Assembly (NCBI RefSeq): GCF_010692725.1
Contig: NZ_JAAFZB010000096.1
Span: 558,001 to 622,000 of the forward strand
DNA length: 64,000 bases
DNA from: Flavihumibacter soli
GTDB taxonomy: Bacteria; Bacteroidota; Bacteroidia; Sphingobacteriales; Sphingobacteriaceae
Direction: 5' to 3'
The notes beneath the pieces were generated by a model. The model was not told the DNA's origin. It was given only the letters and a program-made list of their open reading frames with translations, and did not search any database. Position numbers and translations under genes: made by a program. Of this stretch, positions 19,372 to 25,914 are shown in pieces (position 1 is the stretch's first letter; every line of letters begins with the position of its first letter).

Positions 19372-21438
19372 CTAAACCTCCCCGTTTCGCTTTCTAAAGA
19401 ACCACTCCGCAGTCAACAAACTAATTATCAGAAAGAACAGTAATTTATAATTTACTGCCTCTTCATATTTCCGGTCTTCGTAGACAACGGTTTTTATATT
19501 CTCATTAGCATCTATCAGCTGTGGCAGTTTTGATAGCTGTTCGGGATAGATCATTTGTCCACCGTTCTGATCAGCCAGAGCAAAAAGCAGCTGATGGTTT
19601 GCGGTAGTTTGTTGCAACTCTGCCTGCTGATGCCTGATCACAAACTGACCACCTGCTTTGTACTCTTTATTCCCAAGCCTGGTCTTACCATCGAATGTAT
19701 ATTCTCCTGCCGGTAAGCTTCCCGCATCCAGTGTGTATGCATTCCCAATTCTAGAAAATAAAAAAGAATAGCCTTTACCATCCCGATTCTTCAGGGAAAC
19801 ATTGACATCCGGCTCATTGATTAATTCATAAGCATCATTGTAAAGTTCTGCATTCAGGATGACCTGTTCGTTCTCATCAAATGAATTCTTAGCCGGGTAG
19901 ATCCTGAACTTACGCTTATCGTCCCTGGTAGAAAGATACTGAATGGTCTTACTGATCAGTTCATTGACCGCTTCATGAGAATTACTCTCCTGGAATTCCT
20001 CAAGGCGCCAGCGCCAGATACCCTCGCCAGCCAGGACACCAACTTTTCTTTGTTGATCGCCGCCAAAGATCAACAAGGGAATGTTGGTGGAAACCTTCCC
20101 TATTTGCTGCAGCAGCGCGACGGTTGCAGGTCCTTTTACTCCGTAATTTCCAAACGGTGCAATCAGTGGAGCAAAGCCCTGTAATTTTGTCTTGCTGTTA
20201 TCACTCAGGGTGAACCCGTAAAAATCCGGCGAAACCCTTGCCAGAACTTCCTGGGTGGTACCCGAGGAATTGATATTCAGAACGTCCTGAGAAGTTGAAA
20301 AAAGGGTGGGGCTACTCTGAGCACCCAGAACATAAAGAACAGGCTTAGCTGAAAGCTGTTGCTGGAGCTTCGATGCCGTGTTGCTGAGGGATGGAAGCTG
20401 ATGCAGGATAACAAGTCCTGCCTTGCGTACAGCGGCTTCATTGACATCATCAGCGTAGGCGATCTGTACTTCATAATTTTTATTGATCTCGATCGATTGG
20501 CGCAACGCGGCAATATCGGGGTGCGGTGCATTGGCAATTATAAGCACGTTCTGGCGCCCATCTATTACCTCCACAAAAATAGTCTGGGTGTTGTTTTCCT
20601 TCGACAGTTCATTGGCAACTGGTGAAAGATTGATCGTGTATCGCTGAATACCCCGACGCTTGGCAGGCAGGGATATTGGTACTGTAAGCCGGAACTCGTT
20701 AGATCCTATTGCCAACTGCCTTGTAAACAAGGTACCTGACTGATCGGCGACAGTCAGTCTGCTAACGGCGCCCTGGCTTTGAAACGCTTCAACACTTACC
20801 TCGATCTGAAACTGGTTATCGAGGTAGGCAATATTATTATAGTTAACATTTGAGATAAGGAGATCCTTTTTCGGCACCGTATCACCCAGTGCTACTGAAT
20901 ATACCGGAGCCTTTAAATTTTTGCTTTCATAAACAGGATTGCCGCCTTTGTTATAAATGCCATCTGAGGCGACTATGACCGCCCCAACATTACGATTGGC
21001 AAAATCATTATCGATCATCTGAAAAACAGAAGCCAGGTTGGTTAGTTTACCATCGTATCGAAATTTCAGGCCCCGGTCCACAGCCGCGCCAAAACTGAAC
21101 GACCTAACATCGTATTCCTCCGATAGCGCTTTCTCTAATGCCCTGAACTGTTCCGCATAGGTTACCGGGTTGAAACCGGCGGCTTTCGATACGTTAATAG
21201 ACTGCGAATTGTCCTGCGCGAGGATGATCAGAGGCTTCTCAGAGGTTCTGTCGGTAGTCTTTATTGGTGGTGCGAAAAGTAGAAATGTGATAGCGGCAAC
21301 GGCCAGTGTTCGCAAAACAAAAAGAATATTCCGGAGCGATTTGTCCAGGCGTGTCTGCCACCGGTAAAGCAAGAGAGCATACCCTGCCCCTAAAGCAAGA
21401 CATCCAAGAAGCCAGAAGAATATTGGGGCAGTGAACAT
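19372..21438 (-). CDS. VWA-like, multi-span membrane protein
   Basis: 688 residues. Two N-terminal spans (about 5-25 and 36-56) precede a von Willebrand A-like domain whose DNSQS (76-80) keeps the DxSxS metal site. VGAVIVASDGIYNKGG follows as the fourth strand. The middle part has immunoglobulin-like strands and a class I amidotransferase-like fold (NVLIIANAPHPDIAALRQSI). A last span precedes the basic tail FFRKRNGEV. Related Bacteroidota proteins are uncharacterised or grouped with BatA-type membrane proteins; no MoxR ATPase lies nearby. Its ATG is directly against the arm of an inverted-repeat element (21439-21983), which therefore forms its 5' leader. Confidence 0.75.
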   Translation of the reverse strand: MFTAPIFFWLLGCLALGAGYALLLYRWQTRLDKSLRNILFVLRTLAVAAITFLLFAPPIKTTDRTSEKPLIILAQDNSQSINVSKAAGFNPVTYAEQFRALEKALSEEYDVRSFSFGAAVDRGLKFRYDGKLTNLASVFQMIDNDFANRNVGAVIVASDGIYNKGGNPVYESKNLKAPVYSVALGDTVPKKDLLISNVNYNNIAYLDNQFQIEVSVEAFQSQGAVSRLTVADQSGTLFTRQLAIGSNEFRLTVPISLPAKRRGIQRYTINLSPVANELSKENNTQTIFVEVIDGRQNVLIIANAPHPDIAALRQSIEINKNYEVQIAYADDVNEAAVRKAGLVILHQLPSLSNTASKLQQQLSAKPVLYVLGAQSSPTLFSTSQDVLNINSSGTTQEVLARVSPDFYGFTLSDNSKTKLQGFAPLIAPFGNYGVKGPATVALLQQIGKVSTNIPLLIFGGDQQRKVGVLAGEGIWRWRLEEFQESNSHEAVNELISKTIQYLSTRDDKRKFRIYPAKNSFDENEQVILNAELYNDAYELINEPDVNVSLKNRDGKGYSFLFSRIGNAYTLDAGSLPAGEYTFDGKTRLGNKEYKAGGQFVIRHQQAELQQTTANHQLLFALADQNGGQMIYPEQLSKLPQLIDANENIKTVVYEDRKYEEAVNYKLLFFLIISLLTAEWFFRKRNGEV

Positions 21439-21983
21439 GTCTGGATCGGGATTTATTGGATTGGAGGATTGACGGATTCTATCTGAGGGATCGTATTTAA
21501 CATCTTATTTTTGGAATGCATTAATCGTTTAACTTCTAAACTCCTGGCTCCAAAGTTTAATAGTAAGCCTTTGTCCAATTTATACGCAACCAGGTAATTT
21601 AATCCCTGGGCCAATTGTACATCTTCTAAACGTGCCACTGCTTTCAGCTCAACCATAACCTTATCCTCAACCAAAAAATTCGACTCTCCTGCTTCCAATA
21701 TTCTCACCTTCATAAAATATCTGCATCGGCACTTCCCTTTAAAACGAAAGCCCCATATTCCCTAACTCGATAGCCAGGGGCTGCTGACAGATCACTTCCT
21801 GAAAACCATTTCCTAAAGTACCATGCACTTTCATGGCACAACCAATTATTTTATACGTGAGTTTGTCTTCTATTTTCTCACCCTCCATAGGAGCATTGTT
21901 TAAGGTAATTTGTTTCTATAACTGAAATCGATCAATTAATCCTCTTCCATACGATCCATTAATCCTTTAATCCAGATCCCGAC
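21439..21983. mobile_element. Inverted-arm element enclosing a broken GxxExxY gene
   Basis: Left arm about 21439-21496, right arm about 21924-21983. Both are built of degenerate GGATT/GGATC words and face each other. They begin alike (left GTCTGGATCGGGATT; right, read on the other strand, GTCGGGATCTGGATT) and share an exact 9-mer GGATCGTAT (21488-21496; inverted at 21949-21957). The element starts one base after the ATG end of the VWA gene and stops two bases before the SIMPL stop codon, so it fills the intergenic space. No transposase and no clear target duplication. That it is, or was, mobile is my inference. Confidence 0.45.
21453..21888 (-). pseudogene. GxxExxY protein (PD-(D/E)XK-like) pseudogene
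   Basis: Frame 1 starts at an ATG at 21888 and reads MEGEKIEDKLTYKIIGCAMK, HGTLGNGFQEVIC (the family GxxExxY motif, with Cys in place of Tyr). It is closed by TAA at 21741-21739 after 49 codons. The same frame continues past the stop as REVPMQIFYEGENIGSRRVE, clearly the family's next segment. At a run of six T (21673-21678) the match jumps one frame to FLVEDKVMVELKAVARLEDV, then AQGLNYLVAYKLDKGLLLNF, and stops at 21453. So there is one nonsense codon plus one frameshift. The usual Asp of RxDF is Glu here, and VELKA keeps the ExK pair. An 86-residue frame starting at 21713 is only the 3' fragment. The family is thought to be nuclease-like; its function is not established. Confidence 0.8.
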
Positions 21984-21985
21984 AA

Positions 21986-22714
21986 TCAATCAATCTCGAA
22001 ATTCGCATTCACCACCGCAGTAATTTCCTTCCGAATTGAGCTAACATCATTAATACCGTAGTCGGAGGTCATGTTTGAATTTTCAGGCGTGATCTGCAAT
22101 ACGCCCATGCGTGCACTTTTAAGCGTTCCAAGTTCCCGCCCTGTTGCTTTTGCGATCCGCTGCCCCCGGATCATCGCATCCTTAGCCGCTTCAGCCTGGA
22201 TCTCAATTTTGATATCGCCTACCTTGGTGTAGTAATATTCCGGCTGATTGACCTGGAAATTGACACCCCGTTCAACCAGCCCGCTGATCTCTAAAGAGAT
22301 CGACTTGATCAGTTCCACATCGCCGGATTGAATATCAATCATTTGCGATGCATTATATGAGCGGACGTCGAGCTGCTGACCGGTCTGACTATAATTGTAG
22401 ATAGGATAATTATTGATCGTCTGGAAATTGATCTTGTCCGCAGGGAAGCCCTTCGACCGGATATACTCAATAAGAATTGGCTTCTGCGCCTGCAATGCCC
22501 TGTAGGCCTCGCTGGCTGTAATTCCGGACGCATTAAGTGTTCCGCGTAAAATCCCCAGGTCTGAGACCATTACTTTCTTAGCGGAGCCAGTGACAGTGAT
22601 GGTTTGGTTCTCGCTTTTCACCTTACGCCAGGTACCTGAGAAAACCGCCGTAGATATAACAGCGGCAAGACCGAGAATAAGGGCCGGAATGATCAGACGG
22701 TTGGTAATAGCCAT
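21986..22714 (-). CDS. SIMPL-domain (DUF541) protein, membrane anchored
   Basis: 242 residues. An N-terminal signal anchor (LIIPALILGLAAVISTAVFS, about 7-26) is followed by a SIMPL domain: ITVTGSAKK, VMVSDLGILRGTLNASGITA, then ERGVNFQ, AEAAKDAMIRGQRIAKATGR and a closing VVNANFEID. E. coli YggE is the best-known relative (linked to oxidative stress, mechanism unclear). Periplasm-facing by topology. Alone in its transcript as far as can be seen; the inverted-arm element abuts its stop codon. Confidence 0.87.
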   Translation of the reverse strand: MAITNRLIIPALILGLAAVISTAVFSGTWRKVKSENQTITVTGSAKKVMVSDLGILRGTLNASGITASEAYRALQAQKPILIEYIRSKGFPADKINFQTINNYPIYNYSQTGQQLDVRSYNASQMIDIQSGDVELIKSISLEISGLVERGVNFQVNQPEYYYTKVGDIKIEIQAEAAKDAMIRGQRIAKATGRELGTLKSARMGVLQITPENSNMTSDYGINDVSSIRKEITAVVNANFEID

Positions 22715-25022: not shown

Positions 25023-25388
25023 TCAGGAACTGGCGGGAATAAATTTCATCGATATAGAATTCACACAGTGCCTTGTATTCTTAGGAGTAAACCGCTCTCC
25101 TTCAAATACATGCCCCAAGTGAGCACCGCAGTTTGTGCAGACGATCTCTGTTCGGCTTCCGTCGGCATCTGTTACACGCTTTACCGCGCCCGGAATCTCA
25201 TCGTCGAAGCTCGGCCAACCGCAATGGGAATCAAACTTATCATCCGACTTATATAAAGGTGTGTCACATTGCCTGCAGATATAGGTTCCCGCGGCTTTAT
25301 TATCAGTATACTCACCGGTAAAAGGCCTTTCAGTTCCCTTCTGCAGGATCACATACTCTTCTTCAGGTGTTAATTTATTGTAGCTCAT
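25023..25388 (-). CDS. msrB: Methionine-R-sulfoxide reductase, cytosolic
   Basis: Repairs methionine-R-sulfoxide in proteins. 121 residues. Zinc cysteines Cys38/Cys41 and Cys84/Cys87; catalytic Cys108 in RHCVNSISM; Cys56 in HCGWPSF is the likely resolving residue. No signal peptide. Lies directly downstream (58 bp) of a second, exported msrB copy on the same strand, so the pair may be cotranscribed and protect cytosol and envelope together. Confidence 0.93.
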
Positions 25389-25446
25389 ATTAATTAAATC
25401 ATTCCAATAAATAAGAATTCTGACAGCGGGTTTGTTTTAACAGCTC

Positions 25447-25914
25447 CTATTTCTTCGCCGGAACGAAAACCATAGATATAGAATTCACACAGTGCCTGGT
25501 ATTTTTGGCCGTAAATTCTTCACCGTAGAACACATGTCCAAGGTGTGCCTTACAATTTGCGCATACGATCTCCATCCGCATTCCATCCGCATCCGGTATC
25601 TGTTTAACTGCTCCCTTGATCTCCTGGTCAAAGCTTGGCCAACCGCAATCTGATTTAAACTTGGATTCCGATGTGTACAATGGTTTGCTGCAGCGTTTGC
25701 AGAGATAAAGACCTTTAGCCGTATTATTAGTGTATTCACCGGTATGGGGTCTTTCGGTCCCCTTATAGACGATAACGCTTTCTTCCTCCTTGGTCAGTTT
25801 GCGGTATTCCGTTGAAGAGGTCTCCTTTTTAGCAACTTTTCCTGTGGCTGTCTGGCCAGAAACAGCACCGACGCTGAGTATCAATGCTACAATGAAACAA
25901 ATGCTCTTTTTCAT
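25447..25914 (-). CDS. Methionine-R-sulfoxide reductase, exported
   Basis: 155 residues: signal peptide [19 protein letters not shown], a linker to about 35, then a full MsrB domain. Zinc cysteines Cys72/Cys75 and Cys118/Cys121, catalytic Cys142 (RHCVNSISM), likely resolving Cys90. It is clearly a paralogue of the downstream cytosolic MsrB. The signal peptide predicts periplasmic action. A partner electron donor (thioredoxin-like or membrane reductase) is not seen nearby. Confidence 0.92.

Follow-up and report, generated by a model that had tools for sequence, protein, structure and literature searches.

A decayed GxxExxY nuclease gene between inverted word arrays in Flavihumibacter soli: probably a dead copy of a REPIN-like element

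The window analyzed here, a stretch of 64,000 nucleotides from a contig of Flavihumibacter soli, contains a broken gene of the GxxExxY family enclosed by inverted arms made of short repeated words. This locus is probably a dead copy of a small element, consisting of a GxxExxY nuclease gene and its inverted arms, that worked in the manner of REPIN/RAYT systems. In relatives, the gene and its arms form one unit that is present or absent at a site. The type of arm goes with the clade of the protein, and each element keeps its two arms alike. Some genomes also contain scattered palindromes that have these ends and no gene, and in Bacteroidota a genome that carries a CACAGAG arm pattern almost always has the gene as well. 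For the broader proposal that GxxExxY nucleases are the enzymes of an unrecognized REP-like class of mobile DNA, occurring in many bacterial phyla and with a co-evolving code of word and enzyme, we put the chances as even; a single metagenome-assembled genome perhaps extends the class into archaea. The features of the locus are:

19372..21438, minus strand: neighboring gene of 688 aa, called a VWA gene in an earlier, sequence-only reading of the window; it matched no Pfam family at E ≤ 0.001
21439..21496, plus strand: left arm, a decayed header GTCTGGATC followed by inward GGATT/GGATC words; adjoins the 688-aa gene at its start codon
21453..21888, minus strand: GxxExxY (PDDEXK_3) pseudogene, with its N-terminal and C-terminal halves in different frames and its C-terminal tail entering the left arm
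21673..21678, minus strand: T6 run (A6 on the plus strand), site of the frame change in the pseudogene
21739..21741, minus strand: in-frame TAA in the N-terminal half of the pseudogene
21924..21985, minus strand: right arm, inverted, reading TTGTCGGGATCTGGATTAAAGGATTAATGGATCG... on the minus strand; abuts the stop codon of the SIMPL gene
21986..22714, minus strand: neighboring SIMPL (DUF541) gene, which served to locate the empty site in relatives

The arms and the pseudogene exactly occupy the 547 bases that lie between the SIMPL stop codon and the first codon of the 688-aa gene, as the sequence-only reading had stated. Its description of the arms as a matching inverted pair was borne out by alignment, the score being 24 in the inverted and 8 in the direct orientation; none of 8836 pairs with the same geometry elsewhere in the window reached 24. 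We also recovered the exact inverted 9-mer common to both arms, GGATCGTAT, and the GGATT/GGATC words that it had noted throughout them: there are six GGAT words in the left arm and five in the right, all pointing inward with none reversed, and five or more such words occurred in just 2 of 4408 windows of 58 bases. Its claim that the arms open with the same string apart from two bases was too strict, the best alignment of the two openings having a 3-base gap as well as mismatches. The left-arm header, GTCTGGATC in the window, is GTCTGAAC in relatives. A header search across the window gave 7 matches where 4.9 were expected, which leaves the header by itself without significance there, and a triple GATT array was matched once with 0.72 expected. 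A generic inverted-repeat search at its settings returned no inverted pair at the locus, because the arms are imperfect.

Profile searches upheld the assignment of the gene to the GxxExxY family. The C-terminal half matched TIGR04256 with an E value of 1.4e-15 and 57.7 bits (curated cut-off, 35), and PF13366 matched both halves, with a score of 51 for the C-terminal half against a cut-off of 22. The four defects listed earlier are all present in the translations, i.e., the TAA, the frame change at the A6/T6 run, the replacement of the motif Tyr by Cys, and a change of Asp to Glu at a position that is invariant in an alignment (A1) of relatives. The frame of the C-terminal half extends into the left arm and stops at 21453. 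The window gene is a pseudogene of the GxxExxY family, in which motif and catalytic residues that are in place in aligned relatives have been altered. The same genome (G000) holds three GxxExxY genes with three arm variants, two of them GATT-like: an intact 129-aa gene (C95, L006:2830-3545) lies between GCGCAAAG/CTCTGCG words, and a broken one (C92, L007:2828-3475) between TTGATT/ATGATT words. At 25023-25914 of the window, two adjacent genes resemble, by eye, tandem paralogues of methionine sulfoxide reductase B.

The TIGR04256 profile had matches in 56 of 121 genomes of the family and in 152 of the 296 Bacteroidota genomes sampled, where a single genome had up to 12. For the analysis of flanks we assembled 111 family loci (30 chosen by the tool, 80 picked by hand from the listed matches, and L007), all but two of them (109) with full flanks; the window locus received its score separately. 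A phylum set comprised 30 best-scoring loci, one per genome, and a multi-phylum set comprised the best 80 of at least 571 loci, drawn from 17 phyla; six of the 80 lacked full flanks, leaving 74. Control genes were ORFs chosen mechanically rather than predicted genes. The inverted flank score had a median of 28 at the 109 family loci, compared with 19 for mismatched pairs and 18 for 41 genes of the window; 58 of the 109 lay above the 95% point of the mismatched pairs in the inverted orientation and 20 of the 109 in the direct orientation. Against 82 control ORFs taken at those loci, 48 of 74 loci in the multi-phylum set (the best 80 of at least 571) scored beyond the 95% point, and 37 of the 74 beyond the 99% point. 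An enrichment of inverted arms over control genes, which the sequence-only reading had proposed as a check, is thus found in both sets. That reading had also taken intact relatives with the gene and no arms as evidence against its idea, and such loci do occur: a detectable inverted pair was absent, the scores being below the cut-offs, at 51 of 109 family loci and 26 of 74 multi-phylum loci (from the best 80 of at least 571). The arms are therefore common, not universal, beside the gene. No arms were seen at L262, one arm only was present at L223, L248, L299 and L305, and the arms of L226 look direct.

The arms have a common anatomy, i.e., a short header followed by a core word repeated about every 9 bases (8-10 bp). 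Headers read in the family flanks were GTCTGAAC, AACCAC/AACCGC, TTTCACGC and GCCACGG, and the core words were GATT, GAATT, CARAG, CGGAA, TAAG and CATAG; the L126 protein, for example, has CACAGAGGTACACAGAG arms and the L100 protein GTCTGAACCGGGATT arms. Over 439 flanks, self-identity at lag 9 was 0.313 compared with 0.276 after shuffling, a difference of 12.5 standard errors, with lag 12 next at 10.0 and lags 8 and 10 near 7. Words of the GATT class pointed inward 98 times and were reversed 29 times, and those of the AG class 127 and 29 times; TAAG words had no inward bias (14 inward, 10 reversed). Read by eye, arms occur in about ten phyla. Those resembling TTAACCACAGAGACACAGAG lie beside the gene in Pseudomonadota, Planctomycetota, Omnitrophota, Chloroflexota, Acidobacteriota, Spirochaetota and others, and also on a plasmid record from Gemmatimonadota; in the archaeal metagenome-assembled genome (L244), words are present on one side only. 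Rfam at gathering scores gave no match in ten sources. The open-access literature returned by our searches, as far as its retrieved passages go, names GxxExxY in passing and yielded nothing on its function or on these repeats; arms are unmentioned in the parts of the TIGR04256 and PF13366 family descriptions, and in the passages, that were found.

In a tree of 107 family proteins, arm class followed clade, with three changes for a two-state label and nine for a six-state label. Inheritance of one site by several species accounts for many of the loci, and when linked by one or both flanks the 136 proteins formed 85 site clusters; we therefore kept one row per site and arm class. In this reduced set, in which 66 of 98 rows were labelled and the 32 without an arm label were left uncounted, the two-state label required 5 changes (mean of 1000 shuffles 19.8, minimum 13) and the six-state label 9 (mean 25.8, minimum 19). 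Between different sites, the proportion of pairs with similar arms rose from 2-3% at protein identities below 40% to 61% of 67 cross-genome pairs above 70%, and about 7 of 90 same-genome pairs below 60% identity reached the same arm-similarity cut-off; such covariation of arms and protein could come from linkage by descent alone. The two arms of an element were more alike than the arms of its nearest relative elsewhere by 82 versus 34 of 118, in a set that was not reduced to one per site, and the mean scores were 30.0 within elements and 21.6 and 21.1 against the nearest relative elsewhere. Arms that are alike within elements and unlike between them indicate fast drift between elements with equality preserved inside each one, which would be expected if both arms had to be read by something.

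Different arm classes also occupy the same site, as judged from one or both flanks, each with the fitting protein clade, as in a gap that we take to be leuC-leuD from names put on the flanking proteins, at L018/L100, and at L063/L086. The leuC-leuD gap has at least three arm classes (GAATT, GATT and AG) in different genera. At L133 and L138, elements stand in opposite orientations between what is apparently the same pair of neighbors.

The description of the window locus as a small element, now decayed, agrees with the enriched flanks of the family and with the state of the site in relatives. Among nine relatives of the same genus that hold both neighbors, the gap between the SIMPL and 688-aa genes, which the sequence-only reading had suggested comparing, was empty (62-82 bp) in eight. 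The ninth (L152 of G067, about 2220-2680) has a different small ORF there, so that this gap takes more than one kind of insert. At a second site, both flanks were held by 10 of the 17 loci examined: six of these were empty (82-144 bases), G104 had a solo palindrome, G092 had the arrangement palindrome-arm-gene-arm-palindrome with a broken gene, and two had longer gaps without a header.

Copies of the arms are dispersed away from the gene. The pattern GTCTGAACN{1,4}GATTN{4,6}GATT was found in 22 of 121 family genomes, with up to 57 matches per genome, and the printed copies include many gene-less palindromes; reversed-pattern controls gave no matches in the 121 family genomes or the 296 genomes of the phylum sample. 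Thirteen palindromes of 73-102 bp had exact headers, and two of the 13 flank a gene; the broken gene of G092 is the sole gene seen inside a palindrome of the GTCTGAAC type. Dispersed copies are about 73-90% alike. When folded as single-stranded DNA, nine of nine palindromes were more stable than all of 200 shuffles (z -4.2 to -6.5). The number of tandem units differs between G104 and G109. In a search for target-site duplications, with the headers taken as putative ends, identical 3-mers lay outside them in 1 of 13 palindromes. In G324 (L337-L339), solo arms lie head to head with the headers inside, and their spacer variant is that of the arms of the resident gene (L126). Among the dispersed arms, 7 of 20 best matched a gene of their own genome, all in G324 or G403; the comparison covered 30 of the 45 gene matches in the ten genomes concerned, and we did not count it in support of the element. 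Arms of the GTCTGAAC type also occur in genomes without any TIGR04256 match (36 in G086, 7 in G056 and 6 in G101), and the case of G086 suggests that arms may outlive the gene. Near-identical copies of the gene within one genome are seldom found: identity exceeded 60% in 3 of 93 same-genome pairs, which gives no sign that the gene itself moved recently. One query protein matched 8 of 72,556 plasmid records and none of 50,697 phage records, and a scan of viral contigs with one degenerate pattern gave two loci.

Observations of this kind bear on a rather unlikely alternative, a homing-type element whose nuclease cuts a preferred intergenic target or solo palindrome, so that break repair copies in the gene together with its arms, the arms being repair homology rather than transposon ends. 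PD-(D/E)XK homing enzymes exist; the same gaps are used repeatedly by different types, and one site occurs in the empty, solo-palindrome and palindrome-gene-palindrome states, all of which would suit such an element. However, the spread of 136 proteins over 85 site clusters means that many gaps are used, and dispersed gene-less palindromes are unexpected for a pure homing gene.

As to the protein itself, an alignment of 60 sequences showed no variation in G-x-G-x-x-E-x-x-Y, in one Asp or in Glu-x-Lys. A structure model (pLDDT 96.8) has an alpha-alpha-beta-beta-beta-alpha-beta core, and the nearest solved structure was 4ic1 (SSO0001), presumably a Cas4, with a VIA Z score of 10.0 and an rmsd of 4.2 over 100 residues; a restriction-like protein of Spirosoma (Z 8.1) and, lower, Hjc resolvases (Z 7.5) also matched. 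Foldseek gave no match at E ≤ 0.001, and by sequence no solved relative was found at E ≤ 1. A Cas4-like profile matched weakly (E 3.7e-4), and the one match in PHROGs was weak and unnamed. Selection on the gene is purifying, with a median dN/dS of 0.10 and a maximum of 0.25 among 29 same-site pairs. By mechanical ORF calling at 151 loci, it lay in the sense direction with both neighbors at 105 and antisense to two co-directional neighbors at 15, i.e., 105 of the 120 loci with co-directional neighbors are sense, as exemplified by the fabD-fabG gap in Sphingomonas (L223).

This low dN/dS, the sense position in operon-like strings, vertical persistence at single sites and the weak Cas4-like match could also describe a resident host repair or defense nuclease, with the arms as operators, mRNA hairpins or self-protection sites and the dispersed arms passive. 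We think this distinctly unlikely: the gene is patchy in occurrence (152 of 296 genomes, up to 12 matches), its sites are found empty, and the arm pattern reaches 57 matches in one genome.

At the level of whole genomes, ACCRCAGAGN{1,3}CRCAGAG was present in 50 of 296 Bacteroidota genomes. TIGR04256 matched in 47 of these 50 and in 105 of the 246 others (p=1.7e-12, uncorrected for kinship), and the 32 genomes with two or more copies of the pattern all had the gene, with none among genomes lacking it (likewise uncorrected). For arms of the GTCTGAAC type the association with the gene was weak (15 of 22 versus 41 of 99, p=0.03).

A Y1 transposase is also commoner in arm-positive genomes, Y1_Tnp being present in 47 of 50 compared with 163 of 246 others (p=2.6e-5), and within GxxExxY-positive genomes a weaker link persists (45 of 47 versus 86 of 105, p=0.02). 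The first of these results would fit a reading in which the arms are ordinary REP/REPIN sequences moved by Y1 (RAYT), GxxExxY genes merely collecting them. This is very improbable, because the arms follow GxxExxY within Y1-positive genomes (gene in 45 of 47 with arms versus 86 of 163 without, p=5e-9), and among GxxExxY-negative genomes Y1 occurred in 2 of the 3 that have arms and in 77 of the 141 that have none. Eight of ten Y1 loci, with the ORF identified by its HxH motif, were readable on both sides; a GTCTGAAC header was present at none of the eight and a single arm word at one. Given this behavior within Y1-positive genomes and readable Y1 loci without arms, we rejected the identification of the arms as REPs of a RAYT.

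That the arms are chance low-complexity intergenic DNA beside a random pseudogene is scarcely credible and was rejected for the family as a whole on its flank scores (58/109; 48/74, from the best 80 of at least 571), on a pattern with no reversed matches, and on the clade tracking and the genome-level association, leaving a small possibility for the single window copy, where, because the two arms are low in complexity, the score of 24 was also reached by 105 of 3000 shuffles that kept their dinucleotides.

We therefore return to the REPIN-like element. It would comprise a PD-(D/E)XK nuclease of ~125 aa, nearest to Cas4/RecB-type and Hjc structures, between its arms. Probably as a dimer or oligomer whose register matches the ~9-bp words, the nuclease would bind both arms, which may pair as a hairpin or cruciform, and would cut at or near the headers; repair or re-joining might then give copies of the arm pairs elsewhere, the gene being in the loop or left out of it, much as RAYT does for REPINs. 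The gene usually rides in the sense orientation inside strings of host genes, so that its expression probably comes from read-through and its inheritance is probably vertical over long periods. The copy in the window genome has lost its enzyme. The sequence-only reading had suggested that GxxExxY proteins act on such arms as RAYT transposases act on REP sequences; the analogy has gained from the tracking of clade by arm type, the dispersed gene-less palindromes and the co-occurrence of arms and gene; the binding, cutting and copying of arms by the protein are inferred.

In the portions of PMC3116915 and PMC8049555 available, enzyme copies in one genome are distinct, repeats also occur in genomes lacking the enzyme, and RAYT genes are not on plasmids; REPINs and RAYTs resembling the present layout are also reported in the available part of PMC3733652. 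As far as those excerpts describe them, REPIN/RAYT systems resemble the present elements in having a single enzyme gene between inverted palindromic arms, hairpin doublets that lack the gene and are scattered between genes and in tandem clusters, distinct enzyme copies per genome, and repeats in some genomes without the enzyme; the two are also alike in that RAYT genes are not found on plasmids in those excerpts and GxxExxY genes are nearly absent from plasmid and phage records. Here such doublets are present, with arm patterns positive in only 22 of 121 and 50 of 296 genomes. From this likeness we concluded that the element works like a REPtron with a PD-(D/E)XK nuclease. The differences are that the RAYT enzyme is a HUH/Y1 tyrosine transposase, whereas that of the present element is PD-(D/E)XK by profile and fold; that the arms here are arrays of 8-10-bp words with headers such as GTCTGAAC or AACCAC; and that there are fewer gene-less copies and a strong placement in sense within operons. 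No GTAG/CGTC tag was noticed in the printed arms. Since its enzyme comes from another superfamily, the present protein is not a RAYT.

Other known systems share fewer features. MITEs of DDE transposons, like the solo palindromes, lack the gene and keep inverted repeats whose ends are those of a gene-bearing parent, but no DDE enzyme was seen in the element; equal 3-mers, as a target-site duplication would leave, lay outside the headers in 1 palindrome of 13. PD-(D/E)XK homing endonucleases are small stand-alone nucleases of the same fold and show presence/absence polymorphism at one site; the present element differs in having inverted arms of its own that change with the enzyme, and dispersed gene-less copies. 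Cas4/RecB-type and Hjc nucleases share the fold and catalytic residues, and we know of no arms of the GxxExxY kind for them. The window gene belongs by profile to TIGR04256 GxxExxY / PF13366 PDDEXK_3, a family named after its motif. The element class looks new, with the window copy as a decayed member, because REPIN/RAYT, the nearest kind, fails on the defining enzyme; it is a variant if all elements with inverted ends are counted as one kind.

An abundant family known by its motif, present in 152 of the 296 sampled Bacteroidota genomes, thereby gains a candidate DNA partner adjoining its gene. If the proposal is correct, mobile or repeat-spreading systems would include one driven by a restriction-like nuclease rather than by a HUH or DDE enzyme, intergenic repeats of the CACAGAG type would be explained, and the pairs of enzyme and word would provide a natural series for reading DNA recognition by a 125-aa nuclease.

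The header GTCTGAAC and its complement also occur in papers on DNA uptake in Neisseria, whose uptake sequence contains GTCTGAA; this is probably a coincidence. A primer beside an invertible capsule promoter of Bacteroides fragilis, given in the accessible part of PMC3090145, holds an CTCTGTGTTCTCTGTG arm word pair.
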